Shown: positions 3,239 to 29,661 of the stretch, in pieces | How positions within the stretch are numbered: the stretch's first letter is position 1 | How the letters are laid out: every line of letters begins with the position of its first letter | Source of the DNA: a virus | Direction: 5' to 3' (one strand) | IMG/VR virus record: IMGVR_UViG_3300042304_000395 | Span: 1 to 43,203 of that record | DNA length: 43,203 nucleotides | Made by a program: the position numbers and the translations under genes | The notes under the pieces: generated by a model | The model's database searches: none | Told to the model about the DNA's origin: nothing | What the model saw: the letters and a program-made list of their open reading frames with translations, nothing else

Positions 3239-3245
3239 TATTTAT
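3239..3245 (-). promoter_or_regulatory. Late promoter-like motif ATAAATA before gp15
   Basis: TAATAAATAAGCGACT on the minus strand overlaps the stop of LamG 1, 7 bp before the gp15 ATG. May serve the packaging genes further on rather than gp15. Confidence 0.3.
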
Positions 3246-4647: not shown

Positions 4648-4685
4648 TATATGTTAAACCTTCCACGCATAGCATTAAAATTCTG
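3964..4685 (-). repeat. 33-bp exact repeat at the ends of two LamG genes
   Basis: Positions 3964-3996 and 4653-4685 are identical and encode the QNFNAMRGRFN C-terminus of LamG proteins 2 and 3. Confidence 0.85.
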
Positions 4686-5375: not shown

Positions 5376-5386
5376 ATTAAAACTCC

Positions 5387-15900: not shown

Positions 15901-16150
15901 TGCCATTGGCCTTTATGATAGAAAGGTTCGCAGTTGAACCTAGAACACCTGAATCATTAAATTGGACTTCACCATTCAGACCAGCAGGACCAGTTGCGGT
16001 ATCTGTTGATATAAAAAATATTGCACCATTGGGTTTCGCATAGAAAATCTTACCATCAGCTGAGTTGATGGAAATCTCACCATTGGCCAAGGTTGCAGGA
16101 ACATTACCTGCAACCGTTGAGTGCTTAATCTGAATTGTTGTATTTGCCAT
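12980..16150 (-). CDS. Long repeat-bearing tail fibre protein with KxFVIKHP C-terminal domain (1056 aa)
   Basis: Predicted fibre. The N-terminus MANTTIQIKHSTVAGNVPAT then LANGEISINSADGKIFY is a common baseplate-proximal start in marine T4-like fibres; TGPAGLNGEVQFNDSGVLG follows. The middle contains many QNNSITAAF...AN units and NTNITSVTNTAAAAF units, plus the module shared with the 1032- and 463-residue fibres (AGGTITGDLVVTGNLTISGQ; GKWQANSGSATGAYF). From about residue 945 comes KSFVIKHPLKEGMQLRYGSL, EGPENGVYVRGQLEG and IELPDYWVKLIDPNSITVQL, a widespread fibre-tip domain. It lacks an attached S74 peptidase chaperone, so I do not predict self-cleavage. Long exact DNA repeats inside (54 and 69 bp) offer recombination points. 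Confidence 0.85.
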   Translation of the reverse strand: MANTTIQIKHSTVAGNVPATLANGEISINSADGKIFYAKPNGAIFFISTDTATGPAGLNGEVQFNDSGVLGSTANLSIIKANGTLTVGGSVRSAGSPGDSSFISRGTNQKGGANYHGFLEAHNSTAANGSKHFRVNSIGDMEVVNSGYTATILSLTDAGVLSTPALATTGYVQFSDGTRQYTANAGSGGGTVTSVGGVSGAISNTQLLGFITSVDGAGSGLDADLLDGLNSTSFANTTTTDAINVTQNNSITASFTQANLAIVNALSASNYANGAFAVANAATTTNLTQNNSLTAAFVQANAAYTRANNSLNANTGGTITGNVIISSNVTITGNGASLTIQSNTAFVSPNTQNTITMRMLNGGTLSFSGNAGELFSITDSMAAGSIFSVNDISGLPVIDVDANGWISMAQYGGNVHIYNAATSVSNSTGALVVDGGVGVRGNVYADAVYDGGVEVIAFANAAFNTANAAFISANLANGVDTTQNNSITAAFIAANSAGIYANGAFTAANATTTLQSGINTTQNTNITSVTNTAEAAFLAGNTAATLQSTINTTQNNSITAAFLAANSAATLSAATDATQNTNITSVTNTAAAAFLAANSAATLSAATDVTQNNSITAAFLAANSAATLSAATDLTQNNSITAAFIRANNSISANAGGTITGDLVVTGNLTISGQTTYSNTVQLLVGDNLITLNAELPTSVTPVENAGIEINRGNTFANSSLLWIEASGKWQANSGSATGAYFLANEAVVTAAFLAANSAATLSAATDATQNTNITSVTNTAAAAFLAGNTAATLQSTINTTQNNSITAAFIAANSAGIYANGAFTAANAAVTLSAATDLTQNNSITASFIAANSAGIYANGAFAAANAATTTNTTQNNSITAAFTTANSAAIYANGAFAAANAATATDTTQNNSITAAFTAANNRVLKTGDTMTGNLVIVGTLSATTKSFVIKHPLKEGMQLRYGSLEGPENGVYVRGQLEGTTTIELPDYWVKLIDPNSITVQLSSIGNYQKLFVENIVNNTVTIGIEDNTVDKLKCFYTIFAERVDVSKLQVEI
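13664..14689 (-). repeat. Exact dispersed repeats within the 1056-aa fibre gene
   Basis: A 69-bp stretch is identical at 13664-13732 and 14621-14689, a 54-bp stretch at 13752-13805 and 14496-14549, and a 47-bp stretch at 13791-13837 and 14364-14410. They encode GAFTAAN, TTATLQSTINTTQ-like and NTNITSVTNTA units of the stalk. Confidence 0.85.
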
Positions 16151-16650
16151 TAGAACGAACTACCGTCTTTTACTTCTTGTTTTTTGGTGATTGGTGGTTC
16201 TTCAAGTAAAAGTACAGGCGCTGGTGTTGGTTCTTCAAACTTCTTGTCAGGATTAATCTTCTTCAATTTAGAAATAGGAACTGCTTGCTCAAGTTTATCA
16301 ATGTATTCTTTAAGCTTGCCAATTTCTCCATCTCTCTCTGTTATCACTGCTTGCAAATCTGCATGTTTACGCATGTAATCATTTAGCGCAGATTGTATTC
16401 TATCTTTTTCCTGATGTGCTGAAGTATTCTGTAAAGCTCTCTGTTTATACGATTCTATTTCCTCGACCAATGGACGAATAGCATTGTATTGATTTTGAGC
16501 TTCAGCCAACTTTGCCTCTAATTCTGCCTTCTGTGTACCAGTGTCCTCAACCATTTTTAGTTGAGTTTGAAACATGAAATTCTGCTTAATGATTGACATT
16601 AAATTGTCAAGCAGAATCTCCTGATAAGTGTTTGAAAATTCCACACTCAT
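16150..16650 (-). CDS. Coiled-coil protein with proline-rich tail (166 aa)
   Basis: Unrecognised protein. The N-terminus YQEILLDNLMSIIKQNFMFQ is helical and residues about 35-135 form a long predicted coiled coil (AELEAKLAEAQNQYNAI; AVITERDGEIGKLKEYIDKL). The C-terminus is Pro/Glu/Lys-rich (EEPTPAPVLLLEEPPITKK). A clear AAGGAG lies before the ATG. It is sandwiched between two stalk fibres and coupled to the 1056-residue fibre by TAATG, which fits a fibre-specific assembly factor or a structural linker. No enzyme motif is seen. Confidence 0.75.
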   Translation of the reverse strand: MSVEFSNTYQEILLDNLMSIIKQNFMFQTQLKMVEDTGTQKAELEAKLAEAQNQYNAIRPLVEEIESYKQRALQNTSAHQEKDRIQSALNDYMRKHADLQAVITERDGEIGKLKEYIDKLEQAVPISKLKKINPDKKFEEPTPAPVLLLEEPPITKKQEVKDGSSF

Positions 16651-16673
16651 AACAACTCCTTTTCACGATAATA

Positions 16674-18065
16674 TTAGAATGTTCCACCTTGCAAATGTGA
16701 GAAGGTTGGAACACCTGCATTATTTATAGTCAATACATGGCCTTCTGTTGAAGACGATGCTGTAGAAACTGCACCAGTACCTTGACCTAACAAGACACCG
16801 TTTGTTGTAAATGTGGCTGCACCTGTACCGCCTCGAGCGACACCTAGTGTACCAGAAGTAATAGCAGAGGCCGAAATTGCAATAGAAGTAGAGTTAGCGG
16901 TACTGATACGACCGTTTGCCTCAAGTTTAAATGATGCAACAGAAGATGCAGAACCGAAATCGGCAGCCGAAATCGCAATGTTTGTAACGTCTGTGTTAGC
17001 CCTAGTAAATGCACCGTTCGCATAGATTGAAGCACTATTAGCTGCAGCAAATGCACCGTTAGCGTAAATTGAAGCAGTATTGGCCGCAGCAAAGGCACCA
17101 TTTGCATAGATTGAAGCACCACCAGCATTTGCTACCGCAGTATTTGCTTGAGTAAATGCAGCTGTAATGCTGTTGTTTTGTGTAAGATTAACTGCTAAAC
17201 TTTGGTTAGCAGTTGTAAATGCGGCATTGGCCTGAATGAAAGCACCGTTAGCATAAACACCATTTGACTCAGAACCAATAAAGTATGCACCTGTTGCAGC
17301 ACCGCTGTTGGCTTGCCATTTACCAGAAGCTTCAACCCATAGAAAAGAAGCATTCGCTAATGCATTACCACGATTGATTTCAAAACCAGCGTTCTCAGAT
17401 GGTGCAACTGAAACTGGAAGGTCAGCATTCAATGTGATAATGTTATCACCAAGTTGAACGTTGGTTGTATTAGCGTAAGTAGTTGCGCCACTAACTGTAA
17501 AGTTACCAGTAATTACCAAATCACCGGTGATTGTACCGCCTGCATTAGCACTAATAGAATTATTAGCACGGGTGAATGCGGCTACGATACTGTTATTCTG
17601 TGTTAAATCTGTTGCAGCTGATAATGTAGCTGCTGAATTGGCTGCCGCAAAGGCACCGTTAGCATAAATTGAAGCGCTACCTGCATTTGATACAGCAAGG
17701 TTGGCCTGTGTAAATGCAGCTGTAATACTATTGTTCTGTGTAGCATCAATTAATATGGATGCATTAGCAACTGTAAAGGCAGCATTTGCCTGATGGAATG
17801 CATTGTTGGCCTTAGTGTAACCGTCTTGTGCAAACGTTGAAGTTCCTGCCGCATTAGCAGTTGTAAACGCAGCGTTAACTAAGTTGAAGATACCTGCTTG
17901 TTGGTCAAGGTAGAATTTACCACCAATAGCAATTGCACCGGTACCTGCTGGAGAACCAATGTATGCAACGTTACTTACATACGAATACGCTGGTTCTGCA
18001 ACGTTTAGCGTTGTTGGCGCCGCATTTACCGTGGAAAATTTAAGTTGAATTACAGTATTGGCCAT
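16674..18065 (-). CDS. Repeat-bearing tail fibre protein (463 aa)
   Basis: Third member of the stalk family. The N-terminus MANTVIQLKFSTVNAAPTTL is similar to the 1056-residue fibre, followed by GAIAIGGKFYLDQQAGIF. It carries QNNSITAAFTQANTAV-type units, the shared module (AGGTITGDLVITGNFTVSGA; GDNIITLNADLPVSVAPSEN; SGKWQANSGAATGAYFIGSE), three GASIYANGAFAAAN-type units, and a C-terminal segment GTLGVARGGTGAATFTTNGV common in phage fibres. It ends LQGGTF; the next gene also ends GGTF. It starts 1 bp before the small neighbour's stop triplet... the two genes abut without overlap. Likely a short fibre or an accessory stalk. Confidence 0.82.
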   Translation of the reverse strand: MANTVIQLKFSTVNAAPTTLNVAEPAYSYVSNVAYIGSPAGTGAIAIGGKFYLDQQAGIFNLVNAAFTTANAAGTSTFAQDGYTKANNAFHQANAAFTVANASILIDATQNNSITAAFTQANLAVSNAGSASIYANGAFAAANSAATLSAATDLTQNNSIVAAFTRANNSISANAGGTITGDLVITGNFTVSGATTYANTTNVQLGDNIITLNADLPVSVAPSENAGFEINRGNALANASFLWVEASGKWQANSGAATGAYFIGSESNGVYANGAFIQANAAFTTANQSLAVNLTQNNSITAAFTQANTAVANAGGASIYANGAFAAANTASIYANGAFAAANSASIYANGAFTRANTDVTNIAISAADFGSASSVASFKLEANGRISTANSTSIAISASAITSGTLGVARGGTGAATFTTNGVLLGQGTGAVSTASSSTEGHVLTINNAGVPTFSHLQGGTF

Positions 18066-18323
18066 TTAAAAAGTGCCTCCAGTTATTATTGTTATTGTGC
18101 CTGTGAGGTCTGTTGTTGGTTGAACCTCGAAAGTGTTTGTTGTTGAGTTAAAAACAAAAGTGTAACCATTGGCAACACCCGCTGTCGAAACTCCACCAAC
18201 TTCATTAATAGATACGTTTGGTTTTGGTCGAAAATTATTGGAAACAATCGTGGTCCTATTTGACTGGTTGAGTGTTGTTCTTCCAATAGAACCTGTTGTA
18301 TTAATTTTAGCTATTATAGCCAT
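18066..18323 (-). CDS. Small virion-associated protein (85 aa)
   Basis: Unrecognised small protein, MAIIAKINTTGSIGRTTLNQ at the start and TDLTGTITIITGGTF at the end. The GGTF terminus matches the end of the 463-residue fibre that follows directly, and GYTFVFNSTTNTFEVQPT has the look of a fibre tip beta-hairpin. The start shares a base with the preceding stop (TAATG). Its small size and its place before a fibre gene fit a minor structural or attachment protein; no function can be assigned from the sequence. Confidence 0.7.
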   Translation of the reverse strand: MAIIAKINTTGSIGRTTLNQSNRTTIVSNNFRPKPNVSINEVGGVSTAGVANGYTFVFNSTTNTFEVQPTTDLTGTITIITGGTF

Positions 18324-18658
18324 TATATGCGTGTTACTCCAGGTGCTACTACCACAATTCCTTCAACTACTCTGGTTGTCACAGATTGTGGAGAAGTAAT
18401 AATAACATCGTACATATAACGACCAGGAGTTAAGTTGGCTGTGTTAGCCGAGGTCATGGAAATAGTTACTTCACCGTTTGCTGTGCCTGTGACAGAAGCG
18501 GTGAAGTTAGTTGCTGTTGTTGAATAGAACGATTTACGCAGTTGTGATGATGCGCTATAACCATATAGATTAATAGCATCGCCAGCAGTATCTTCTACAT
18601 TGATTGTAGAGGAAAAAGATGCGTATTGTTCAATCGTTATCTCGGAATAAGCGGCCAA
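18323..18658 (-). CDS. Ig-like small structural protein, TTG start (111 aa)
   Basis: Beta-rich small protein (EITIEQYASFSSTINVEDTA; YGYSASSQLRKSFYST; GRYMYDVIITSPQSVTTRVV) similar in style to BppU-like or Ig-like phage baseplate accessory domains. The start is TTG at 18656-18658 with GGGAG 7 bp upstream; the next ATG would remove most of the domain. The RBS lies in the 3' arm of a hairpin whose loop holds a late-promoter motif, so read-through messages should be translated poorly and late messages well. Coupled to the following 85-residue gene by TAATG. Confidence 0.75.
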   Translation of the reverse strand: MAAYSEITIEQYASFSSTINVEDTAGDAINLYGYSASSQLRKSFYSTTATNFTASVTGTANGEVTISMTSANTANLTPGRYMYDVIITSPQSVTTRVVEGIVVVAPGVTRI

Positions 18659-18662
18659 AATT

Positions 18663-18702
18663 AACTCCCAATTTAATTACCTATTTAGTCAAACTGGGAG
18701 TT
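18663..18702 (-). promoter_or_regulatory. RBS-sequestering hairpin with a late-promoter motif in its loop
   Basis: AACTCCCA (18702-18695) pairs with TGGGAGTT (18670-18663), an 8-bp stem with a 24-nt loop. The 3' arm contains the GGGAG ribosome-binding site of the TTG-started gene, and the loop contains CTAAATA. A transcript started from that motif would begin in the loop and lose the 5' arm, freeing the RBS. Confidence 0.65.
18682..18688 (-). promoter_or_regulatory. Late promoter motif CTAAATA in hairpin loop
   Basis: CTAAATA followed by GG on the minus strand, 24 bp before the TTG start of the 111-residue gene and inside the loop of the hairpin at 18663-18702. Confidence 0.5.
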
Positions 18703-18712
18703 TGGAACTGTG

Positions 18713-18967
18713 TTATTCTAATGCTTCGATTTTAGCAGTAAGTGCTTGAAGTTGAGCCAACAATTCTTCTTTTGTTGGTGTTGGTGTAACAACAGGTTCA
18801 GGTACAACTGGTTCAGGTGTTGTGAATGTATTTCCATTCCATGAATCACCAATGTTTCCAACTTTACCTTGACTGTCTGTGTCTGTTATTAAGTTTGGTA
18901 AAACATCTAATGATTCTACCAAAATAGCATTAACAACAATTCCATTTTTGATTACTAAAGCTCTCAT
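18713..18967 (-). CDS. Tail fibre assembly-like protein (84 aa)
   Basis: Starts MRALVIKNGIVVNAILVES, continues NIGDSWNGNTFTTP, then a Pro/Val linker (EPVVPEPVVTPTPT) and a short C-terminal helix (KEELLAQLQALTAKIEALE). This N-I-V-x-N...W-x-G-x-x-F-T-x-P layout is common in small phage proteins next to fibres that act as assembly chaperones. I chose the ATG at 18967, which gives the TAATG overlap used throughout the window; an ATG 24 bp upstream would overlap the adhesin by 25 bp. Its partner is probably the glycine-rich adhesin encoded just before it. Confidence 0.72.
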   Translation of the reverse strand: MRALVIKNGIVVNAILVESLDVLPNLITDTDSQGKVGNIGDSWNGNTFTTPEPVVPEPVVTPTPTKEELLAQLQALTAKIEALE

Positions 18968-20331
18968 TATACAATCCCCCAAATAATACAAAGTCCGTTT
19001 CCACCAGCACCGCCAGAACCGCCATTACCACCGCCAAAGTTTGCACCGCCTCCTCCGCCACCTCCACCTGGAGTTGCGCCAGAACCGCCACTTACACCAC
19101 CAGAAGCACCTCCGCCGCCACCGCCTCCACTGCCACTACTTAATACTACACCGTTAGTGCTGTGCAAAGCTCCATTAGTGTAAGCTGTTGTGTAACCAAT
19201 GCCACCGCCTTGGAAACCTACACCGCCGTTGCCGGGGTTACCAGACCCATCCATTTGTTCTCCTGAACCCCCACCTGTAGCACCAAATATACTATTCGAT
19301 CCTCTAGAAGAATTGCTACCACCAGCTGACCCACCATATTCAGTATAGCCTAGATTTCCGGAACTAGGAGCACCACCGCCAAATCCAAAATTCATACAAA
19401 AATTTTCACTTGTGCCTCTATCACCATAAACAATAACACCAGTAGTACTGGAACCAGGCATTTTAGGATTACCACCAGTGGTTGAAGTACCAGCACTCAA
19501 TATACCTCCGCCGCCGCCGCTTAGGCCAGAAGCGCCTGAGCTTGCGGTGTGGCCAAAATAACCACCATAAGCATAGAACTGTGTGCCAAAAGAAGTATCT
19601 CCACCAGCTGTACCATCAGAAGAAGAAGATAGGCCACCTGCTCCAGCTGTGCCGCCGGCACCAATAGTTACTGTAGTGGATGTTCCTGCTGTACTTTCAA
19701 AAGTTGCAATATGTTGGCCACCGCCAGCGCCACCGGCACCTGAGTAACGACCGGGTGCACCTGCGCCTCTACCACCTCCACCACCTCCACCGCCACCCCA
19801 CATTCTTAAAGACAATTGTGTGTAACCAGGTGGAGTAATAAATGCTCCTGTTGAAGTTATTGTTTTTTTAAACGTATCTAAAACTATAGAAGTAAATGCT
19901 GTTCCTGTACATTGAACCAATCGAACTTCGCCAGGATACATTACAAAACTTGTTAAGCCATCAATCGTTTCGCTTGCGTTTGGATCAAGTGTAATGTCAC
20001 CTGAACCACCATTCTTTAGGTAACAGAACCAACCGTCACCTAAAGTTGCTGCAGCGGTGAATGTTTGTGTAAATGTACTACTGAGGTTAATTACATAAGA
20101 GTTATCATTTACACCTAATATTGTATTAGATGAACGTGAAGATAATTTTACACTACTGCCGCTAATTGCAACATTAGCTGCACTTGTCAGTCTACCAACA
20201 GAATCGACTGTGATAATTGGAATAGCACCAGCACCACCATAAACACCGGATGTTACGCCAGTGTTGGCCAGAGCTGCAGATGTAATCGTGTTTGCTGTAA
20301 TACTATTAGCTGTAATTCTTGAGATTGGCAT
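18967..20331 (-). CDS. Glycine-rich tail adhesin (454 aa)
   Basis: N-terminal fibre segment (MPISRITANSITANTITSAA; TGVTSGVYGGAGAIPIITVD) shared with other fibres here, a middle beta domain (SSTFTQTFTAAATLGDGWFC; GEVRLVQCTGTAFTS), then from about residue 160 a domain starting ITSTGAFITPPGYTQLSLRM and passing into long polyglycine runs interspersed with Ser, Ala and Tyr to the C-terminus. Glycine-rich tips of this kind occur in gp38-type adhesins, where polyglycine-II helices carry receptor-binding loops. A CTAAATAG late-promoter motif lies 29 bp before the ATG. Probably a receptor-binding tip; receptor unknown. Confidence 0.8.
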   Translation of the reverse strand: MPISRITANSITANTITSAALANTGVTSGVYGGAGAIPIITVDSVGRLTSAANVAISGSSVKLSSRSSNTILGVNDNSYVINLSSTFTQTFTAAATLGDGWFCYLKNGGSGDITLDPNASETIDGLTSFVMYPGEVRLVQCTGTAFTSIVLDTFKKTITSTGAFITPPGYTQLSLRMWGGGGGGGGGRGAGAPGRYSGAGGAGGGQHIATFESTAGTSTTVTIGAGGTAGAGGLSSSSDGTAGGDTSFGTQFYAYGGYFGHTASSGASGLSGGGGGILSAGTSTTGGNPKMPGSSTTGVIVYGDRGTSENFCMNFGFGGGAPSSGNLGYTEYGGSAGGSNSSRGSNSIFGATGGGSGEQMDGSGNPGNGGVGFQGGGIGYTTAYTNGALHSTNGVVLSSGSGGGGGGGASGGVSGGSGATPGGGGGGGGANFGGGNGGSGGAGGNGLCIIWGIV

Positions 20332-20359
20332 AGTTTTATTGTTCTATTGGTTGTTTACT

Positions 20360-20367
20360 CTATTTAG
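20360..20367 (-). promoter_or_regulatory. Late promoter motif CTAAATAG
   Basis: CTAAATAG on the minus strand followed by AGTAAAC, 29 bp before the ATG of the glycine-rich adhesin. The CTAAATA variant is frequent in marine T4-like phages. Confidence 0.55.
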
Positions 20368-20394
20368 TTAATATAGGATGCTTTCTACATTAAC
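20367..20394 (-). terminator. Hairpin after the glycosyltransferase cassette
   Basis: GTTAATGTAG (20394-20385) pairs with CTATATTAAC (20376-20367): ten pairs including one G-U, loop of 8 nt, beginning one base after the stop of the 114-residue gene. No T-run follows, so it may be a weak terminator, an RNA-end protector or a processing site. It abuts the CTAAATAG late-promoter motif. Confidence 0.5.
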
Positions 20395-20395
20395 A

Positions 20396-20740
20396 CTAGC
20401 TTGCATCAAGAGCTGTTTTTCGTGCCCAGACCCAATCAGCCGCAGCAGAAGGATCAAAAGGAATAGTTGCTTGTGGGTCACCAGGTTGTGTTGGATCTGG
20501 TTGAGTCCAATTTGCACCTACATCGGTCAAATAAGTTAACAGGTCAGCTTTTGTAGGAATAATTTCAGCGTCTCCTACATCATCATTTTCTGATAGACCA
20601 ATCATAACCATATCACGAGGACTTGGTGTTGAAGGATCACCAACTACATATACACCACCAACACCCTCAGGATGTAGGCAAAGAAATGTTGGGACTGTAC
20701 CTTCAGCGGTTAGACGATATTTAATGCAATGGTGTGCCAT
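20396..20740 (-). CDS. Conserved small protein of unknown function (114 aa)
   Basis: Not recognised. Visible features: MAHHCIKYRLTAEGTVPTFL, a Gly/Val-rich strand (GVGGVYVVGD), an acidic centre, and a Pro/Trp-rich C-terminal part ANWTQPDPTQPGDPQATIPF then AADWVWARKTALDAS. It may be a small fold related to fibre assembly proteins. It overlaps the glycosyltransferase gene by 20 bp and has AAGGAG before the ATG. It is the last gene of the cassette started by the sigma70-like promoter at 22331-22359 and is followed 1 bp after its stop by a 10-bp-stem hairpin. Confidence 0.68.
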   Translation of the reverse strand: MAHHCIKYRLTAEGTVPTFLCLHPEGVGGVYVVGDPSTPSPRDMVMIGLSENDDVGDAEIIPTKADLLTYLTDVGANWTQPDPTQPGDPQATIPFDPSAAADWVWARKTALDAS

Positions 20741-21455
20741 TTAAAACTCCTTGTTGAGCATATTGCCCTGAAAAAAGATAAGAGCCAAAATGACCGAGAA
20801 CGCACCAAGGAGCAGCCCAGATTGTTCCTCCATGTTCACGGTACATGTGGCAGAAATTGTAATCCTCAGATAGTAATTCGTTATTTACATTCTGAACTTT
20901 GAAATAATCATAAATTTTTTCATTCGCATTAATAGTATTACCTGCATTAGTATACCAACCAACATGTGGTTTGATTTTCTCAAACACATCTTTGCGAATA
21001 AGCATAAACCCTGTGCCTATATGTTTAACCTGAAAGGGTAAATTAGGAGCAATCATTTCATGGTCCTTTAATTTATTTATATTAAATATACCTGAAAGAG
21101 ATGAAAGATTTGGATGATTTAGAACAGCACCTTGTCGCACTCTTTCCCAATTTATTCCTTTCATAGGAACAGGTCCACCAATAATACCTTTGTCCGCTTT
21201 TATCATCAAAGCAATGTCATTTGCTAAAAATTTTTGATCCGCATCGATAAACATAAGATGAGAAGCATCTTGCATATTCATAAAGTGATGAGCAATGGTA
21301 TTTCTACCTCGCTGTATTAAACTTTCATTACCAAGAAAGATACAAGTAAGTTTAATATTATTAGTTAGACATGCTTCTTTTAAATCAAGAATGGATTGTG
21401 TGTACTCTGTACACATCATTCCGCCATAACAAGGAGTACCAACGACCAGATGCAT
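20721..21455 (-). CDS. GT-A type glycosyltransferase
   Basis: A 244-residue cytoplasmic glycosyltransferase. Start MHLVVGTPCYGGMM is the nucleotide-binding first strand and loop; QRGRNTIAHHF (48-58) is the usual donor-contact segment; MFIDADQKF (68-76) contains the metal-binding DxD (D71, D73); GTGFMLIRKDVFEKI (147-161) and LSEDYNFCHMYREHGG (195-210) carry the acceptor-side and catalytic acidic residues; LGHFGSY (220-226) supplies a late His. No membrane segment. Acceptor and sugar unknown: could modify virion fibres, host surface glycans or DNA bases. It is TAATG-coupled to the upstream coiled-coil gene and sits in a cassette with its own promoter, suggesting expression apart from the fibres. 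Confidence 0.88.
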   Translation of the reverse strand: MHLVVGTPCYGGMMCTEYTQSILDLKEACLTNNIKLTCIFLGNESLIQRGRNTIAHHFMNMQDASHLMFIDADQKFLANDIALMIKADKGIIGGPVPMKGINWERVRQGAVLNHPNLSSLSGIFNINKLKDHEMIAPNLPFQVKHIGTGFMLIRKDVFEKIKPHVGWYTNAGNTINANEKIYDYFKVQNVNNELLSEDYNFCHMYREHGGTIWAAPWCVLGHFGSYLFSGQYAQQGVLNGTPLH

Positions 21456-22297
21456 TATTTTTCCTCTGGTGCTGTAGAAGATTCTTCCAACAAAGGCACA
21501 TTAGTAAGAGAAGATTTATCAAATACAGAAAAGCCTCTGCGGCCAGCAAATTTAGCAGGATCTTCTGCCCATTTATTTGCACATGCCTCTAACCAGCGAA
21601 CAGTCATCTCATGAGTTGGAGCCTGACCATTGGAAATTAATTCATTCTCCATATTTAAATATGCAAAAACTTCAGCCTGTGCTTGTGCAGCATTGATACC
21701 TAAGTCAAACAAGTAAATCAAATTACCTTCATCAATCATACCATTGCGACTACGAGCAGCATTGAGAGCTTGCTTCATACAAGTCATAATGTGATACTTA
21801 GATTCTTCTAGTTCATAGTCTTCTTCAGTAATTTCATTCTTACCAACCTTCTCTAGCAATTGTGCATGTTGGTTGACCATGAAATTCATTTTACGTAAAG
21901 CACCATTGACATGGTTTTGCGTGCCTTCTAAATGGCCATTAATTTCCAGAATTTCTACTTCAAGTAACTCTATATCTAGAGGATCGGTAGCAGCTGCAAG
22001 TTCGACAGTCTTGCGCTTTAGCTCAATCTGTTTTTTACGTAGACCAATATAAGCTTCTTGTAATGCCGATTTTGTTCTATCAATCTCAGCCAATGTGTGC
22101 TTGATAGAACGTATTGGTGTGATTGCCGTTACGTCTAGTGTTACCGACATGAACTGGCTGTGAGACTTGTGGAAGTTGCTTGTGTCTCTGACAATTGCCG
22201 GCATTCTCGCATCAATATTCTGCAACATTACCCCATACTCAGGTTTACTGGTAGTTGCAAGTGCGGTATTAATATTTTTAATAATCAAATCATTCAT
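21455..22297 (-). CDS. Coiled-coil protein of unknown function, first gene of glycosyltransferase cassette (280 aa)
   Basis: Not recognised. Residues 64-150 are rich in charged heptads (SIKHTLAEIDRTKSALQEAY; LRKKQIELKRKTVELAAA), predicting a coiled coil. A helical domain follows (YELEESKYHIMTCMKQALNA; GNLIYLFDLGINAAQAQAEV), and the acidic tail ends LLEESSTAPEEK. No signal peptide or enzyme motif. An AAGG precedes the ATG. The start lies about 27 bp after the predicted transcription start of a near-consensus sigma70 promoter, so this is the only gene in the window with an apparent early promoter. A scaffold or partner for the glycosyltransferase is one possibility; this is inference. Confidence 0.8.
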   Translation of the reverse strand: MNDLIIKNINTALATTSKPEYGVMLQNIDARMPAIVRDTSNFHKSHSQFMSVTLDVTAITPIRSIKHTLAEIDRTKSALQEAYIGLRKKQIELKRKTVELAAATDPLDIELLEVEILEINGHLEGTQNHVNGALRKMNFMVNQHAQLLEKVGKNEITEEDYELEESKYHIMTCMKQALNAARSRNGMIDEGNLIYLFDLGINAAQAQAEVFAYLNMENELISNGQAPTHEMTVRWLEACANKWAEDPAKFAGRRGFSVFDKSSLTNVPLLEESSTAPEEK

Positions 22298-22330
22298 TTA
22301 TTTTTCCTTAATATAAACATAGTGTATTCT

Positions 22331-22359
22331 ATTATATATGATGTTGTAAAAGAAGTCAA
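22331..22359 (-). promoter_or_regulatory. Sigma70-type promoter (TTGACT-17-TATAAT)
   Basis: On the minus strand TTGACT (22359-22354), a spacer of exactly 17 bp, then TATAAT (22336-22331). This matches the bacterial housekeeping consensus at 11 of 12 hexamer positions. The expected transcription start is near 22324, leaving about 27 bp of leader with AAGG before the ATG at 22297. In T4-like phages such promoters serve early genes, while the fibre genes around it should be late. Confidence 0.75.
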
Positions 22360-22371
22360 TGGTTTTTTTAC

Positions 22372-22432
22372 TTATAATTGACATTAAAGCTCGTTCAAAG
22401 AATTCTCCTGTTTGTGGAGAAGTCAATTATAA
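22372..22432 (-). terminator. Nested inverted repeats at the end of the propeller unit
   Basis: Outer arms TTATAATTGAC (22432-22422) and GTCAATTATAA (22382-22372) are perfectly complementary over 11 bp. Inside, TTCTCC (22421-22416) and GGAGAA (22408-22403) form a 6-bp stem with a 7-nt loop, followed by TTCTTT. It overlaps the stop of the upstream gene and lies before the sigma70 promoter. It could be a Rho-independent terminator, a processing site, or an operator. Confidence 0.55.
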
Positions 22433-23467
22433 ACCACCGTGGACCGCAGACGCTGAAAACATTTGTTTATTGGCAGTCAACAAGTCGCCAAAATCTGTGG
22501 CCGAACCACCTGCGGCGAACGTCAGGAAGTCAATCACGTTGGAATCGGAACCAGTAGTACCTCCAGCAAATAAAGCTCGTGTCGAACTGGAGACTCCGTT
22601 CACATAATTTCGGGCCACAGTTAACGTACCAAAAGAGGAGGAGTCTCCTGTACTAGCAATTGTTATTGTTTGCACATCGTCCGTAAGCACACTACCAGGT
22701 AAAAGATATCCTCCCCCAAACACTCCTTTTGTGGAGTTTGAACATGCGCCGGCGCTTTGTCTGGAAGAGTTTAAATCACCAAAATCAACTGCATTTCCAA
22801 CAGAAGCGATTGTTATATAATTGATTGTGTTATAGGTTAAACCTGAAGAACCAGCGAAGACGCCACGAGTTGTGGACGCAACTCCAGAAAGACCTTCCCA
22901 CACCTGCGTCAAATCGCCAAAATCCGTGGCGTCACCAGTTGTAGTAATTGTGATGTACTCAACGATGTTGACTCGGCCTGTGCCAGAAACATCTCCACCA
23001 GCAATGATGCCACGGGTGGCGTTAGAACAACCTCCAAGAATAATTTTTCTGCCGCTGCAATCTCCAAAGTCAAACGAAGTGCCAGTCGTGGCAAGTGTCA
23101 TGTACTGGATCGTGTTGGAATAACCACCGGCATCACCGCCAGCGGCCAAGATGCCGCGAGTACCTGAAGAAATCGTTCCGTTAGCCCCTCGACCTTGAAC
23201 CACAGCCAAGTCACCTACATCAACGGAATTACCAGTGGTCGATATATTGACGTACTGAATAACGTTGGTCATGTTGCCCCCCTCATTGCCGCCGGAAAAT
23301 ATTCCAAGTGGGAACACGTTTCCTGCAGTAGGCCATAGACCTTGCTTAGTCCAAAAAGCTGCCTCATCCAGCGTCCACACACCGGGAGCCGCTCCGTCTT
23401 GATAAGGACCAGCAGGTGCTACAGCTACGGGTCTAATAATCCCTGCGCTCCATGATGAAATTGCCAT
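22427..23467 (-). CDS. Six-repeat, propeller-like tail protein C (346 aa)
   Basis: Third transcribed of three tandem paralogues. After an N-terminal region ending APGVWTLDEAAFWTKQGLWP come six repeats of about 48 residues with the pattern RG(V/I)FAGG...N-I-x-Y-(I/V)-T-I-A-S-T-G-N-A-x-D-F-G-D-L...CSNST. In this copy the repeats are more diverged (e.g. GDCSGRKIILGGCSNATRG). Four-stranded units of this kind, repeated six times, fit a Kelch-like beta-propeller. Ends AVHGGL. TAATG-coupled upstream with GGAGG before the start. Its stop lies inside the 11-bp inverted repeat that ends this transcription unit. Likely a receptor- or glycan-binding tail tip. Confidence 0.8.
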   Translation of the reverse strand: MAISSWSAGIIRPVAVAPAGPYQDGAAPGVWTLDEAAFWTKQGLWPTAGNVFPLGIFSGGNEGGNMTNVIQYVNISTTGNSVDVGDLAVVQGRGANGTISSGTRGILAAGGDAGGYSNTIQYMTLATTGTSFDFGDCSGRKIILGGCSNATRGIIAGGDVSGTGRVNIVEYITITTTGDATDFGDLTQVWEGLSGVASTTRGVFAGSSGLTYNTINYITIASVGNAVDFGDLNSSRQSAGACSNSTKGVFGGGYLLPGSVLTDDVQTITIASTGDSSSFGTLTVARNYVNGVSSSTRALFAGGTTGSDSNVIDFLTFAAGGSATDFGDLLTANKQMFSASAVHGGL

Positions 23468-24429
23468 TATTGAGTTCCTCCGTTGGCATTAGATACAGCA
23501 CCAACACCTAATTGTGAAATTATAGAATCACCAAAATCTATGGCGTTTCCTGTAGAGGCAATTGTAACGTAGTCCATCACATTGACAGATTGGTTAGAAT
23601 AACCATCTATAAAAATACCTCTAGTTGAATTTGAGGCAGCGCCTCCATAACGCCTACTAACAGTCAAGTCTCCAAAATCTGTTGCATTTCCTGTAGAGGC
23701 AATTGTAATATAGTCAATAATATTGTGACTAACGTATGATACATGTCCACCTCCAAAAAGCAACCTAGTAGAATTAGAACAAGCAGCGGTACCGGATTTG
23801 GCTATTGTTGCATCTCCAAAATCTATGGCGTTACCTGTGGAAGCAATTGTAATGTATTCAATAACATTCTTTAAACCAGTAGAATTGGTTCCAACTGCAA
23901 TTATTCCTCTAGTTTGAGATGAAGCTGATGAAGTTTCATAAGCTAATATAGTAGTATCGCCAAAATCTGTGGCGTTACCTGTTGTAGCGATTGTAACGTA
24001 ATCAATCACATTACTTTCATTATTAGACCCCTGAGAAGGTGCAAACACACCTCTTGTTGTACTGTTACAACCACCACTATGATATTCACGACCTCTAGTA
24101 AGGTCACCAAAGTCAATAGCGTTACCAGCTGTAGCAATTGTGATGTACTGAATTACATTAGAACTAAAAACTTCTCCAGAAAATAATCCTCTAGTAGTAG
24201 ATGCACATGTACCCCAATTACCCCAAGGGTTTAATAAATCACCAAAATTAGCAGAGTTAGATAGTGACGAAATATTAATATACTCACTTGTAGAAACAAG
24301 CTTATTTGCCTGTTGTCCAGCAAACACCGCTACGGACCCAGTAAGAAGTGGGGGTGGGAAAGGCCAATTACCAGAACCCTTGGCTTGATACTGAGCAGTG
24401 AGTGTCCATACACCTGAATAGCTTGGCAT
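23467..24429 (-). CDS. Six-repeat, propeller-like tail protein B (320 aa)
   Basis: Second of the tandem paralogues. I place the start at the ATG 24427-24429 (MPSYSGVWTLTAQYQAKGSG), which gives GGAGGAG at proper spacing and the TAATG overlap; an ATG seven codons upstream has no such support. Six repeats of about 45-50 residues follow: each has ...NVI(Q/D/E)Y(I/V)TIA(S/T)TGNA(I/T)DFGD... and ends CNSTTRG-like. The first repeat is atypical (YINISSLSNSANFGDLLNP). Ends SNANGGTQ. Predicted six-bladed propeller at a fibre tip. Confidence 0.82.
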   Translation of the reverse strand: MPSYSGVWTLTAQYQAKGSGNWPFPPPLLTGSVAVFAGQQANKLVSTSEYINISSLSNSANFGDLLNPWGNWGTCASTTRGLFSGEVFSSNVIQYITIATAGNAIDFGDLTRGREYHSGGCNSTTRGVFAPSQGSNNESNVIDYVTIATTGNATDFGDTTILAYETSSASSQTRGIIAVGTNSTGLKNVIEYITIASTGNAIDFGDATIAKSGTAACSNSTRLLFGGGHVSYVSHNIIDYITIASTGNATDFGDLTVSRRYGGAASNSTRGIFIDGYSNQSVNVMDYVTIASTGNAIDFGDSIISQLGVGAVSNANGGTQ

Positions 24430-25631
24430 TATTGGACTCCTCCAGAGCAATTAGAGCAGGATGTTAGGGCATTTGTTGCTCTGGTTAAATCGCCAAAATC
24501 TGTTGTATTACCTGTTGAGGATATGGTTATATATTGCAACACATTAAAACTCGTAAATGTGTTATAACTAAACCCTCCACCAAAGACTGCACGAATTTGT
24601 GAAGAACAAGCGGTAAGAAAGTTCAGAATATCCGACAAATCACCAAAATCTGTGGCGTTTCCTGTGGAAGCAATTGTGACGTATTCAATAACATTAGTAC
24701 CATTTGCTGCATTACCGTCATACCCACCGCCAAAAATGCCACGAGTAGATGAAGAACACCCAGCACCAGTAGCGGTTGGAGATGTTAATGACCCAAAATT
24801 GGTTGCGTTTCCAGCAGACGCAATAGTTACATAATCAATCGTGGTTAATCGGTTAGCACCGTTATATCCGCCAGCAAAAACTCCCCGAGTTGGTGACGAA
24901 CACGCCATTGGCCCTTCAGAAGTGTTTGTCATATCTCCAAAATCAATGGCGTTACCGACTGAAGCAATAGTTACGTAATCAATAATATTATATCTAAAGT
25001 AGGGACTATCAGTCATTACTCCACCGGCAACCAATCCTCGGGTACTGGAACTTGCCCCAGCCGAAGACTGGCGGTTCACAGTTATATCGCCAAAATCTGT
25101 GGCGTTTCCTGTAGAGGCAATTGTAATATATTGAATGACGTTTGTATTACTTCCACCAGCAAACACCCCTCTTGTTGTGGATCCAAACCCGGACTGATAA
25201 ATTTGTGATGAAAGCAAATCGCCAAAATCTGTGGCGTTACCTGTTGAGGGAATGCTTATATAATCAATAATGTTAGAACTTCCACCTGCAAAAACACCAC
25301 GGAACAATTGAGCCGGAGTAACGCTATTGCTTGCCGCACTAAACGCACTTGGCCCATACGCATTCAAAGCCCACACCTGAAAGGTGTATGCTGTGTCGTT
25401 GGTCAACCCTGTAACAGAAATCGGAGACGTTGTGTTACTTGAAATAATTTTACCGGGTGTTGATTGTAACACGTATGATGTAATAGCCGAACCGCCAACA
25501 TTAGGAGGTGCTGTAAACGGTACAGAAGCAGTTGCATCACCACTCGTAGCCGTCCCAATGGTCGGCGCACCAGGGTTTTTTAAGGGATCATAAAAGGCCG
25601 AGATAAACCCGGATGGGTATCGTTTAGACAT
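24429..25631 (-). CDS. Fibronectin III plus six-repeat, propeller-like tail protein A (400 aa)
   Basis: First of the tandem paralogues and the only one with an extra domain. Start is taken at MSKRYPSGFISAFYDPLKNP (25629-25631) because a longer reading to 25676 would overlap the upstream gene by 41 bp. Residues about 20-108 form a fibronectin type III domain (GAPTIGTATSGDATASVPFT; GGSAITSYVLQSTPG; ISVTGLTNDTAYTFQVWALN). Six repeats of about 48 residues follow (e.g. RGVFAGGSNTNVIQYITIAS then TGNATDFGD), ending CSGGVQ. Predicted: Fn3 spacer carrying a six-bladed propeller, exposed on the tail, binding a surface sugar or protein. Confidence 0.85.
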   Translation of the reverse strand: MSKRYPSGFISAFYDPLKNPGAPTIGTATSGDATASVPFTAPPNVGGSAITSYVLQSTPGKIISSNTTSPISVTGLTNDTAYTFQVWALNAYGPSAFSAASNSVTPAQLFRGVFAGGSSNIIDYISIPSTGNATDFGDLLSSQIYQSGFGSTTRGVFAGGSNTNVIQYITIASTGNATDFGDITVNRQSSAGASSSTRGLVAGGVMTDSPYFRYNIIDYVTIASVGNAIDFGDMTNTSEGPMACSSPTRGVFAGGYNGANRLTTIDYVTIASAGNATNFGSLTSPTATGAGCSSSTRGIFGGGYDGNAANGTNVIEYVTIASTGNATDFGDLSDILNFLTACSSQIRAVFGGGFSYNTFTSFNVLQYITISSTGNTTDFGDLTRATNALTSCSNCSGGVQ

Positions 25632-25635
25632 TATA

Positions 25636-26010
25636 TTAAGAAATTTCTTCCCAAGAACATAAAACGGATAAACCATTTGCTGTTCCAGATTTAATTCCTA
25701 TTGAGCGATTTTCTTCCAAGTAAAAAGCTGTAGATTTATCCGACAAAATCAAAGTTGCATCCGCTGGAACAGAAATAGTAGAAGCAATTGGAAAACCAGT
25801 TCCTGCTAAAGCTGCTTGTGAGTATATATTACAACTCACATCAACAGCAGCTGTACCATCTCTGTTTGCTACTATAATAGTATTAACTTTATAGACTTTA
25901 CCACTAGATGCTGGATTGCTTAAGAGTCCAATCTCTGATGAAGTGGAAAGAATTTGTGTGTTTGAGTTAGCATTAATTAGTGCTACGTTGACAATATTAG
26001 GTGCGGCCAT
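25636..26010 (-). CDS. Small beta-rich virion protein (124 aa), paralogue of the 106-aa protein at 32528
   Basis: MAAPNIVNVALINANSNTQI start, KVNTIIVANRDGTAAVDVSC in the middle, TISVPADATLILSDKSTAFY and a C-terminus ending SVLCSWEEIS. The layout (N-terminal strand, VYKVNTIIVAN, a GG or AD turn then LxLSDKxTAFYLEEN) is that of small phage structural proteins, and the end matches SVLEIS of the 106-residue protein. No signal peptide. It lies between a TF-type short fibre and the propeller trio, so it may be a connector, but position on the virion is not known. Confidence 0.75.
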   Translation of the reverse strand: MAAPNIVNVALINANSNTQILSTSSEIGLLSNPASSGKVYKVNTIIVANRDGTAAVDVSCNIYSQAALAGTGFPIASTISVPADATLILSDKSTAFYLEENRSIGIKSGTANGLSVLCSWEEIS

Positions 26011-26016
26011 TTATTT

Positions 26017-26517
26017 TTATCCTCCAAATACAATAGCCATTGCTATTGCCTTTCCTGTTGATGCACCTGGCGATGCAAGTTTTGCGTTTGTAATTGTTCC
26101 GTCAACAATATTATTAGCATTGATAGAAGTCAATCCTAATTTATTGCCAGTAATAGAAGCATCAACAATATTGTTTGCATTGATTGATGTAAGACCCAAC
26201 TTATCACCGGTTACTGCACCAGTAATAATCTTTATTGTTGATACAGACCCATCAGAAGGAATAGAAGCACTTGCACCTAAACCTAAGAATATAACCTCAA
26301 CGTTATTTGTTCCCAACGGAGGTGCTTCAGAGAACACAAGAGTTGAACTGCTAAGACTATATGAGTCTGTTTGTTGACGGACACCACCAACAAAGACAAT
26401 AATAGAACTTGTTGCCAATGGTGCTTCACGTAAGGTGAAGTTAACAGTTGTATTGTCACCACTAAAGGTGTCAATAGCAAATGTTGCTGAGCTGGGAGAA
26501 TTTCCGATGTAAGCCAT
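26017..26517 (-). CDS. Short tail fibre domain protein (166 aa)
   Basis: N-terminal half MAYIGNSPSSATFAIDTFSG, NTTVNFTLREAP, SIIVFVGGVRQQTDSYS and TLVFSEAPPLGTNNVEVIFL is the compact beta domain that starts many phage fibres. The second half has two near-identical LGLTSINANNIVD(A/G) repeats separated by SITGNKL and ends SPGASTGKAIAMAIVFGG. The same N-terminal domain opens the 287-residue protein at 31665. A late-promoter motif (ATAAATAG) lies 31 bp before the ATG, overlapping the preceding stop. Probably an adaptor or short fibre for the downstream propeller proteins. Confidence 0.8.
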   Translation of the reverse strand: MAYIGNSPSSATFAIDTFSGDNTTVNFTLREAPLATSSIIVFVGGVRQQTDSYSLSSSTLVFSEAPPLGTNNVEVIFLGLGASASIPSDGSVSTIKIITGAVTGDKLGLTSINANNIVDASITGNKLGLTSINANNIVDGTITNAKLASPGASTGKAIAMAIVFGG

Positions 26518-26547
26518 AATTCTTTATTTATGTTGTTGGGTTTATTC

Positions 26548-26554
26548 TATTTAT
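26548..26554 (-). promoter_or_regulatory. Late promoter motif ATAAATA
   Basis: GATAAATAGAATAAAC on the minus strand overlaps the stop of the 661-residue fibre and lies 31 bp before the 166-residue gene; the downstream bases resemble those at 20360 (TAAATAGAGTAAAC). Confidence 0.5.
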
Positions 26555-28539
26555 CATGCAATTGCAAGGAAGATGTAAGTACCGCCATTTGCATTAATGG
26601 CGGCTGGTGCGGTGGAGGATAATTCAAACCCTGCGCTGTATGGGTCAATGTAATCTGTATTGGTTACTTCAGCAACTGTACTGTTAATCAGAAGATAAGG
26701 ATCATTTCCAGAAATAATACCTCGAACAGTGTCCCAGACATACCAATCAGCAACGTCATCGGTTCTCTTAATAAGAACAAACCTAGCACCAGCTGCAAAG
26801 CCACAATCAATTGTTTGTGTTGAACCATTACCTGTGTATGAGCCTACTTTGGAAACACCAGGACAAGAGGCGAAAAGATAAACAATATATTCGTAACTAT
26901 TTCTATTTGCAGTAGTAGATGAACCAGTGGAATAAGCTATTGATGATGGTGTAGAATACCAGTTTTGAACACTACTTGCATTTGTTGTATCCAAATATAA
27001 ACCATAAGTCCATCCAAGCAACCCAATACCAACATGCCAATTGCCCGTTTGGTTACTTGACTTAGTAATAATTAATTCTGGTGTTACACCCAAATTATGA
27101 TTAATTGACCTATTTGTTGTTGCGTCTCCAACAAAAGTGAGAATACTAAAGAAACCTGGAGCTCGGCGAAGAAACCAATTTACAACCGGATCACCAGAAC
27201 TATTAAATCCAGATTGAGCTACGTCAGTTCCTACACTTATTCCATCCATGTCATACGAGGTTATCTGTTGTGTTGAACTACTAGCTCCTGAAGAAGTAAA
27301 ATTTGAGTATAGTTGAGCACTACCTCTAAGTCTTGCCATCCATGTAGTATTTAATCCAGCCGTAGCTTTAGCTCTTGCGATTACCAAATCTGGTGGAAAG
27401 CCAACTCCAGTAACTGTAGTTGCTGAGCCTGTACCTGTTCTACTAATAGTTTTGAACACACTAGTCCCAGTCGTAGGCACTTTCATCGGGCCACAGCGGA
27501 TGGCGATGTAGATGTAGGTGTAGCTGCTGCCGTTATTGATTCCGCTTGATCCGTCTGATGCTGTTGCGGTAAAGCCTGTTGATGTTAAATCAACCCAATT
27601 GGAGCTAAATTCTTGATTACTACTGTTTGGGCTCAATCGCGGATCATTGCCGCCAGTGACAATCCCACGCATATTGTCAAATATAAACCAAGCGTTAGTG
27701 CCTGTAGCTTCTTTAATAAGCAGCCATTGAGGCTCAAACCCCAAAGTCGTGGTTACTGCATCGTATGTAACCCCATTAAAAGTGCCGCCCGTATAAGACC
27801 CACACGTAATCACATTGTCTGAGCCAGTCAGACCGAAGCCACCTGCGTTATGGGCAAATAGGTAGGCAACATATGTGTTTCCGGCTTCTCCACTATCAGC
27901 GTTGACTTGTGAGTTGTTGCCAACCGTAAATGTTGTGCTTGTTGGATTAACTGTGGTAGAGTTATTTCCAAAATAGTTAGCTGCGCCACCTGTGGTTTGT
28001 GCGGCCGTACTATTAAGTTTTATGTAGTTTCCTGCTGTTAAACTTCTATGCCAAACATTCCAATCTCCCGTGTTACCACTTCTTTTTACAATTATCATAC
28101 CCGGTACAGAGCCAAGGTTATGTGACAAGTTCTGTGTAGTACCGTTTCCCGTCCATGTCACAATATCAAAGAACTTTGGTTGCTTGCGGAAGGTCCATGA
28201 AACTTCAGTTGCTCCAGATAAGTTGGTGTTTCCAGTGACGTATCCAAGAGTAAAGCCGGAAGAAGTAAAACCAGTCAAATCTGTAGAAGACGAACCATTA
28301 GTGCTGTTAGTTCGCAGTGAGTTTGAAACGCCCTGTACGGTGTTTGTTAACTCATGCGGATCCGCGCCGGCTCGGCTTTTCAGCCAAACCAACCCACCTT
28401 TACCAGACAAATCGATCCCGTTGACAATGGTCTGTGTAGCGCCATTGCCCGTGTATAGGTAAGTGCTGAACACATCTTCAATATATGTTGGCGTTGCTGC
28501 ACCACCGGCCGCATAAACATTATAAGCAGCTTTACTCAT
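26554..28539 (-). CDS. Six-repeat tail fibre protein, DUF7483-like (661 aa)
   Basis: After AATPTYIEDVFSTYLYTGNG the whole protein is six repeats of about 105 residues. Each starts with a Y-x-G-(N/D)-G-type strand, has a P-(G/E/P)-x-(I/V)-(I/V)-(I/V)-K segment, a W-x-(V/I)-(W/F/G) segment and an RG or LG, and closes with a (Y/T)-(I/V)-(Y/F)-(L/I)-A strand leading to the next (WTFRKQPKFFDIVTWTGNG; LFAHNAGGFGLTGSDNVITC; IAIRCGPMKVPTTGTSVFKT; WFLRRAPGFFSILTFVG; LFASCPGVSKVGSYTGNG). The last ends exactly at TYIFLAIA. This looks like the DUF7483-type marine phage fibre family (recalled, not searched). TAATG-coupled to the 182-residue protein. Confidence 0.8.
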   Translation of the reverse strand: MSKAAYNVYAAGGAATPTYIEDVFSTYLYTGNGATQTIVNGIDLSGKGGLVWLKSRAGADPHELTNTVQGVSNSLRTNSTNGSSSTDLTGFTSSGFTLGYVTGNTNLSGATEVSWTFRKQPKFFDIVTWTGNGTTQNLSHNLGSVPGMIIVKRSGNTGDWNVWHRSLTAGNYIKLNSTAAQTTGGAANYFGNNSTTVNPTSTTFTVGNNSQVNADSGEAGNTYVAYLFAHNAGGFGLTGSDNVITCGSYTGGTFNGVTYDAVTTTLGFEPQWLLIKEATGTNAWFIFDNMRGIVTGGNDPRLSPNSSNQEFSSNWVDLTSTGFTATASDGSSGINNGSSYTYIYIAIRCGPMKVPTTGTSVFKTISRTGTGSATTVTGVGFPPDLVIARAKATAGLNTTWMARLRGSAQLYSNFTSSGASSSTQQITSYDMDGISVGTDVAQSGFNSSGDPVVNWFLRRAPGFFSILTFVGDATTNRSINHNLGVTPELIITKSSNQTGNWHVGIGLLGWTYGLYLDTTNASSVQNWYSTPSSIAYSTGSSTTANRNSYEYIVYLFASCPGVSKVGSYTGNGSTQTIDCGFAAGARFVLIKRTDDVADWYVWDTVRGIISGNDPYLLINSTVAEVTNTDYIDPYSAGFELSSTAPAAINANGGTYIFLAIA

Positions 28540-29087: not shown

Positions 29088-29098
29088 TTTTTATTCTC

Positions 29099-29605: not shown

Positions 29606-29627
29606 TTTTATTCCTTGATATTTGGAT

Positions 29628-29650
29628 AGTTAGATTGATATTCTCTAACT
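29628..29650 (-). promoter_or_regulatory. 5' leader hairpin before the assembly chaperone
   Basis: AGTTAGA (29650-29644) pairs with TCTAACT (29634-29628), 7 bp with a 9-nt loop. It lies between the late motif and the RBS and does not cover the RBS; it could stabilise the 5' end of the late message. Confidence 0.35.
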
Positions 29651-29654
29651 GTAT

Positions 29655-29661
29655 TATTTAT
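29655..29661 (-). promoter_or_regulatory. Late promoter motif ATAAATA
   Basis: GCATAAATAATAC on the minus strand overlaps the stop of the 667-residue fibre, 50 bp before the assembly chaperone gene. Confidence 0.45.

Follow-up and report, generated by a model that had tools for sequence, protein, structure and literature searches.

Gene content of the locus

We analyzed a 43,203-nt stretch of viral DNA (IMG/VR record IMGVR_UViG_3300042304_000395, positions 1 to 43,203; hereafter the window) with respect to three minus-strand genes, here named gA, gB, and gC, that lie in its fibre region together with a promoter-like leader and flanking hairpins. A preliminary description, made from the sequence alone, had presented these genes as a glycosyltransferase cassette behind an early-type promoter of its own and suggested that it is expressed independently. 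The window covers part of the genome of a T4-like phage: its positions 13263-43203 and 1-5478 are identical to both ends of a 157.7-kb viral contig of the same phage, G001, which is therefore short of the genome by about 8 kb.

The three open reading frames (ORFs) are present and coupled as described. gA (21455..22297) encodes a 280-aa helical, coiled-coil protein, begins at an ATG in the window phage, and has a weak match to phrog_1409 (E 2.8e-7). gB (20721..21455; phrog_1574, E 1.1e-37) encodes a 244-aa GT-A glycosyltransferase and overlaps gA by 1 nt. gC (20396..20740) overlaps gB by 20 nt and encodes a 114-aa protein without a family match, which partners gA also in phages that have no gB. 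Upstream on the same strand lies a gene for a protein with ITIASTGNATDFGDL-type repeats and the C-terminal sequence ...AVHGGL (22427..23467); its position and repeats suggest an adhesin, and we refer to it by that name.

Conservation of the cassette

Two sets of relatives were compared, and all counts of neighbours and gaps omit loci too short on the side needed. The close-kin set was seeded with the window's own proteins (the best 80 of 125 loci for gB, the best 80 of 290 for gA, and all 74 for gC), so that co-occurrence within it is inflated. The wider set includes two more gA seeds from loci without a glycosyltransferase (best 80 of 134 and best 80 of 382); these enrich the class lacking the enzyme, and the class proportions given below are thus not natural frequencies.

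Among distinct proteins of the close kin, the three genes travel together, as had been proposed. gB is adjacent to gA in 77 of 80 cases and lies 357-477 nt away in the remaining three; gA precedes gB in 81/86, gC follows gB in 80/91, and gB precedes gC in 81/84. With two exceptions, the adjacent pairs retain the 1-nt overlap of gA and gB (75/77). Three loci (L113, L143, and L149) carry an insert of approximately 350-480 nt between gA and gB, the junction being otherwise fixed. Relative to locus L005, all three genes show a purifying signal, with dN/dS of 0.15 for gA, 0.06 for gB, and 0.04 for gC.

In the wider set the glycosyltransferase (GT) is optional and does not belong to the cassette core. 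Within 1600 nt downstream of 178 distinct gA genes we found the arrangements A-C (83), A-GT-C (73), A-GT (7), and A-x-C (2), with gA alone in 13; gB is thus present behind gA in 80/178 and gC stands directly behind it in 83/178. Two loci from bacterial assemblies, L328 and L329, one in a Pirellulales metagenome-assembled genome and the other in an Epulopiscium single-cell genome, likewise have the arrangement adhesin-A-C without a glycosyltransferase match. On a tree of 61 gA proteins and that of P-SSM4, whose bootstrap is not settled, the presence of the glycosyltransferase requires three changes versus a mean of 19.6 for shuffled labels, which suggests that the enzyme was gained or lost only a few times.

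The adhesin-like gene is the other constant companion of gA. Its repeats occur upstream of 75/81 distinct gA genes of the close kin and, in the wider set, upstream of 58/65 genes of the A-GT-C class and 57/62 of the A-C class. The same two repeat patterns were found in 0/65 and 0/62 control stretches upstream of a clamp-linked gB paralogue (see below) and in 0/57 tiles of G001 between 25 and 110 kb.

The spacing of these genes bears on their expression. In the class with the glycosyltransferase, the gap between the upstream stop codon and gA has a median of 27 nt and is at most 36 nt in 71/82 cases, versus a median of 62 nt and 26/71 in the A-C class. Since 71 of the 82 gA genes of the former class begin within 36 nt of the upstream long ORF, in most cases the adhesin-like gene, the cassette is probably co-transcribed with the late fibre genes as a rule. 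As a general design, the independently expressed module of the preliminary description finds no support, given this spacing and the rarity of the promoter (5/218 gA flanks, see below). Five loci of the A-C class (L330, L332, L340, L347, and L360) share, by eye, an intergenic block TAGTATAAA...CATGATCATATACATG about 65 nt before gA.

Distant relatives of gA were detected with the phrog_1409 profile in P-SSM4 (E 2e-116) and S-SKS1 (E 4e-6); the profile of gA itself matches the P-SSM4 copy (E 9e-9) and not that of S-SKS1. The P-SSM4 relative sits two genes past a sericin-like gene, and in S-SKS1 the stretch around the gA relative includes a distant relative of the adhesin found in the window. No gA relative was found at E 1 in Cr30, phiM12, DLP6, MW202753, HTVC027P, ACG-2014f, ACG-2014a, OC, or I1_18; at this threshold 3 of 14 control genomes gave matches, and at 0.001 none did. 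A tblastn search of the INPHARED phages returned no match to gA or gC, and none at E 1 to the divergent gA of L071.

Predicted proteins

With its model (pLDDT 89.5), gB retrieved 50 chains from the PDB at a threshold of E 0.001, most of them named glycosyltransferases, with the best structural matches to STIV A197 (Z 16.5), LH3 (15.7), Mnn9 (15.3), and a collagen hydroxylysine galactosyltransferase (14.0); STIV A197 and LH3 are GT-A enzymes. Residues D71, D73, E197, D198, and H222, presumably the DXD motif and the catalytic acidic and histidine residues, are invariant in 36/36 gB-family members. With a threshold of E 0.1, 11/36 of these members reached PF00535 (best 4.5e-5) and 9/36 reached Anp1 (best 8.7e-5), and the window gB itself matched neither. 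By its modelled fold, gB is thus assigned as a GT-A glycosyltransferase, in agreement with the original annotation, and is predicted to transfer a sugar.

gA is a conserved protein, its mean column identity across 47 sequences being 78%, and its model (pLDDT 79.9) is all-helical with a long hairpin. PDB sequence profiles gave nothing credible for gA, gB, or gC. Hydropathy over 19 residues does not exceed 1.07 in any of the three proteins (0.96 in gB), so that none contains a stretch resembling a transmembrane segment.

The promoter-like site before gA

A near-consensus sigma70-like promoter, TTGACT-17-TATAAT, had been reported upstream of gA and is indeed present at 22331..22359 on the minus strand (-35 hexamer 22354-22359, -10 hexamer 22331-22336), with 11 of 12 hexamer bases matching. 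We defined near-consensus sites by at least 11/12 matches, scanning the window with spacings of 16-18 nt, and under this rule the site is the only one on either strand of the window. When the 129 nt between the genes are shuffled with dinucleotides kept, 50 of 5000 sequences carry an equally good site, but 1.3 are expected on the window's coding strand as a whole versus the one observed. The site gains weight because its hexamers and spacing are retained in two related phages, namely in L005 and, in L006, ahead of its first gA copy. A search with a degenerate promoter string matched four contigs: two of the window phage, L005, and L006.

Among the close kin, a site of this quality occurs in 2/89 distinct gA 5' flanks when the better gA copy of each locus is taken, those of the window phage and L005. 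The wider set has it in 5/218 flanks (window phage, L005, the first gA copy of L006, L363, and L386), versus a mean of 1.05 in shuffles (0 to 4 in 20 runs) and 0 of 357 stretches inside gA, a control that includes duplicates. Three of the five flanks are homologous, and those of L363 and L386 look independent. The promoter is real as a sequence, yet it is a rare addition outside the conserved trio. Three A-C loci (L363, L364, and L386) have TTGACA-16-TATAAT where adhesin and gA meet, and this site seems to be independent of the one in the window.

The coding strand of G001 carries 20 near-consensus sites versus 4.7 expected (maximum 11 in 30 shuffles), six of them within long ORFs. Many of the others directly precede genes that lie elsewhere than in the virion region, and they have a context in common, GC-like before TTGACA and TGT before TATAAT. 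The cassette promoter does not have this context, and its score of 15.2 under a matrix of 13 G001 sites is at the low end of the leave-one-out range (8.4 to 29.5). This score places it 21st on the coding strand, and three positions of the opposite strand score as high. The site is thus plausible as a host-sigma70 promoter but atypical for the window phage.

The claim that all other promoter-like signals nearby are of late type was not confirmed by a scan of positions 14000-30000, which listed 38 sigma70-like sites, the cassette's included, versus 41.3 expected; the remaining sites are thus at chance level. The coding strand of the window has three exact copies of the string TATAAATA (at 32877, at 21081 within gB, and at 16728), and the opposite strand has none. 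This string was considered as a family trait of the region after gC and rejected, being found there in 4/91 relatives, exactly L003-L006.

A fossil start codon and the probable origin of the leader

Upstream of the promoter lies a fossil gA start (22384..22409, minus strand), with AGGAG at 22405-22409, TTG at 22396-22398, and an in-frame stop at 22384-22386. A near-identical string is the live ribosome-binding site and gA start in relatives such as L109, L021, and L034, which have CCACAAACAGGAGAACCCTTTG and begin gA at its TTG. In the window the corresponding CCACAAACAGGAGAATTCTTTG falls within a hairpin and is followed by three codons, the stop, a new leader, and the ATG start of gA. L005 has a longer dead stub ahead of the same leader.

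Locus L006 indicates where the leader may have come from. Its positions 2565-6060 hold tandem cassettes in the order A'-B'-A-B-C, and TTGACT-17-TATAAT precedes A'. The A' leader is identical to the window leader at 55 of 70 positions and keeps all 12 hexamer bases, and the coding sequences are 63.5% identical. The window and L005 leaders agree at 67/70 positions (96%); between the same two phages, the first approximately 430 nt of gA are 89-97% identical and the remainder 64-83%. In the simplest account, tandem gA genes recombined with each other, and gA probably acquired the A' leader with its promoter in this way.

The upstream hairpin, proposed as a boundary of the cassette, can be reinterpreted in the same light. 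The nested inverted repeat upstream (22373..22432, minus strand) folds as reported, at -14.2 kcal/mol when cut tightly (z -3.6, 1/200 shuffles as good) and more weakly in its 121-nt context (z -2.65, 2/200). Its inner stem (22421-22403), listed as terminator-like in a scan with 16 such sites versus 11.2 expected, coincides with the fossil ribosome-binding region, and the right arm of the outer stem lies within the new leader. The fold is therefore confirmed, whereas the inner stem is the decayed old gA start and not a designed boundary. The 10-bp hairpin one base past the gC stop (20367..20394, minus strand) is also present, at -10.6 kcal/mol when cut tightly (z -3.0, 1/200 shuffles) and more weakly in its 81-nt context (z -1.5, 13/200), but it has no U-tract and is absent from the scan's list of terminator-like sites. 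Such sites follow gC in 4/91 relatives versus 5/194 background stretches, and a terminator after gC was rejected as a family trait. By eye, L005 has a strong GGACC hairpin after gC that the terminator rule leaves uncounted, and L003 and L004 have an AT-rich inverted repeat with a T-run, terminator-like in appearance, about 80 nt before gA.

Clamp-linked paralogues of gB

The window phage has a second phrog_1574 gene, located at 33994-34809 of G001 (L227:13994-14809), one small gene before the sliding clamp gene gp45; gp45 and gp44 of G001 were confirmed by profile. The small protein encoded between the two (L227:14806-15156) matches dGTP_diPhyd_N (PF18909). A paralogue is likewise found close upstream of the clamp gene in Cr30, DLP6, phiM12, OC, and I1_18, separated from it by 0 to 4 small genes. 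Among the viral loci of the paralogue set, the best 80 of at least 599, gp45 lies at most 1500 nt downstream in 60/66 cases and about 1.5-1.6 kb downstream in the other six. On the gB-family tree, in which two long branches meet, the clamp-linked copies of the five named phages group with the G001 paralogue (90/82), and the cassette copies of gB form a clade of their own (100/99) apart from them.

Cr30 and DLP6 encode TET/JBP oxygenases that are annotated as SNF2 proteins; the matches to TET/JBP (PF12851) above cut-off lie within genes labelled SNF2 DNA repair protein at KF301602.1 59584-60027 and KU682439.2 27833-28279. Together with the co-purification of a T4 enzyme with gp45 (see below), these associations suggest a possible DNA-modifying role for the clamp-linked branch, and the position of the paralogue near the clamp gene keeps a DNA-modifying ancestry of gB open. 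G001, at 157.7 kb and with some 8 kb of the genome missing, gave no match to PF12851 or to PF00303.

Interpretation of the region

We interpret the region, with a probability of about 0.5, as a host-recognition cassette of a T4-like phage with the order adhesin-gA-(gB)-gC, in which the glycosyltransferase is optional and to which a promoter-bearing leader was added in a few phages. gA and gC would be the constant pair accompanying the adhesin, probably as an assembly factor or adaptor; the location of gA directly behind the fibre/adhesin gene is chaperone-like. gB would have slipped in between them, and most likely it glycosylates the adhesin or another fibre protein of the same transcript. 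To judge from gene spacing, the cassette would normally be made late along with the fibre genes. In the window phage and two relatives the gA leader carries the sigma70-like promoter and an ATG start, with the old ribosome site and TTG left ahead of it as a fossil in the window phage and L005. This leader, most likely derived from a divergent first cassette copy like that of L006, may provide extra or earlier expression.

Several observations weigh against this reading. A fold search of the PDB with gA found nothing down to a threshold of E 0.001. No chaperone family of Pfam or PHROG, the gp38/TFA-type tail fibre chaperones included, is matched by gA or gC. In 13/178 cases gA has neither gB nor gC nearby. 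The promoter site alone is modest evidence, being not rare over a stretch of the window's length. The fold matches of gB include polysaccharide synthases as well as teichoic-acid and protein glycosyltransferases, so the modelled fold does not settle its target. The 96% leader identity with L005 may reflect recent recombination and not selection; because the beginning of gA is equally identical, this pair speaks for recombination more than for selection, and an argument for selection was withdrawn after sliding identities were computed.

The promoter leaves room for two other accounts. That the site is inert, with the cassette transcribed late by read-through alone, we regard as somewhat unlikely: chance would supply 1.3 such sites on the window strand, 213/218 gA flanks do without one, and between the cassette and the following fibre gene there is no terminator with a U-tract, but the hexamers and spacing persist in the divergent leader of L006, and the five promoter-bearing flanks, three of them homologous and two seemingly independent, exceed the 0 to 4 seen in shuffles. 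A moron, i.e., a foreign transcription unit inserted between phage genes with its own promoter and terminator, would explain a promoter and hairpins at both ends. It is highly improbable and was rejected, since relatives hold the same genes at the same place without the promoter: it is the promoter that is confined to few phages, while the genes are found more widely and are not absent from the site. In addition, the hairpin after gC has no U-tract in the window phage, and terminator-like sites at this position are as scarce as given above.

Other accounts concern the target of gB. Modification of host surface glycans (O-chain or lipopolysaccharide) that shuts out competing phages would fit an early promoter such as the one present in the window phage. 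Pelagimyophage host-recognition clusters hold several glycosyltransferases, for which the authors propose a surface-glycan role (PMC7029224); genes for a GHMP kinase, a DegT aminotransferase, and an epimerase are also present in the window phage, as is one for another glycosyltransferase, of family 2. Against this stand the position of gB, enclosed by gA and gC downstream of the adhesin and mostly without its own promoter, and the lack of a transmembrane-like stretch, and we consider this target unlikely. Separately, a transketolase-like domain, the GHMP kinase, the DegT aminotransferase, and the epimerase stand in a row in G001 (L227:503-4116), likely a sugar pathway. Glycosylation of phage DNA by gB in the manner of the T4 alpha- and beta-glucosyltransferases is improbable. 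It draws on the paralogue close upstream of the clamp gene (in the same genome, in the five named phages, and within 1.7 kb in 66/66 viral loci), on the oxygenases of Cr30 and DLP6, and on the co-purification of T4 alpha-glucosyltransferase with gp45, described in a T4 study (PMC13216743). The same study states that gp45 contact is not the main cause of alpha-glucosyltransferase dominance, expression strength mattering more; searches of the incomplete contig of the window phage for TET/JBP and for PF00303 (thymidylate synthase / dCMP hydroxymethylase) gave no match, and the cassette copies of gB branch separately from the clamp-linked ones. A speculative scenario of low probability combines both branches: the family would have begun as a clamp-linked DNA glycosyltransferase, and the branch captured between gA and gC would now sugar-coat the receptor-binding adhesin. 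If so, it would constitute a portable adhesin-glycosylation module beside the bare adhesin-A-C modules of other phages.

Neighbouring genes

The fibre genes of the window are flanked on one side by a gene for a 2071-aa protein (phrog_358, an unnamed family), itself next to genes of the baseplate wedge, and on the other by the gene for the tail sheath stabiliser. By eye, positions 22427-25676 hold three successive genes with related adhesin-like repeats. Downstream of the cassette lies a Gly-rich gene (18967..20331, minus strand; PF21722). Behind the cassette of L006 come a fibre-assembly gene, head-tail adaptor genes, and head-closure genes. A homing-endonuclease-like ORF (phrog_314) adjoins tail genes at 791-1366 of the window.

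Comparison with known systems

Glycosyltransferases in fibre regions of this kind and adhesin-plus-partner modules shared across phage families are already reported (PMC7029224 and PMC10579305, respectively). The literature searched was not found to describe a fixed A-(GT)-C unit, the optional nature of its enzyme, or the origin of its promoter, nor did it mention the PHROG families by number, and the accessible parts of PMC3037559 and PMC11404850 contain nothing on the cassette genes. The host recognition cluster of pelagimyophages and cyanomyophages resembles our region in being a variable fibre region with glycosyltransferases in aquatic T4-like phages; it differs, as far as the accessible text goes, in that GT8 is the most represented family and a fixed adhesin-A-(GT)-C unit is not among its features (PMC7029224). 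The variable fibre region of that aquatic T4-like cluster spans VrlC to the neck gene gp14, and VrlC itself was not identified in the window phage.

At the level of protein fold, gB resembles STIV A197, the glycosyltransferase domain of LH3, Mnn9, and mimivirus R699 (Z 14.2 to 16.5) at 10-19% identity. T4 alpha-glucosyltransferase binds the clamp; the paralogue of gB adjoins the clamp gene, whereas the cassette gB does not, and the T4 enzyme presumably has a GT-B fold, unlike the GT-A fold of the gB family. The paralogues point to a GT-A family kept near the replication clamp gene in T4-like phages.

The Alteromonas modules of a tail fibre and its cognate chaperone, which combine an adhesin with a dedicated downstream partner and are exchanged between phage families (PMC10579305), are alike in plan, with V22 (PMC7289586) as a probable further case. 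The cassette differs from them in its helical gA and in having two partners and an optional enzyme. Beside these modules, the present comparison separates a widespread adhesin partner pair, gA and gC, without a named function in the searched libraries, from an optional glycosyltransferase and a rare promoter. With natural modules both possessing and lacking the enzyme, glycosylation of phage adhesins becomes testable.

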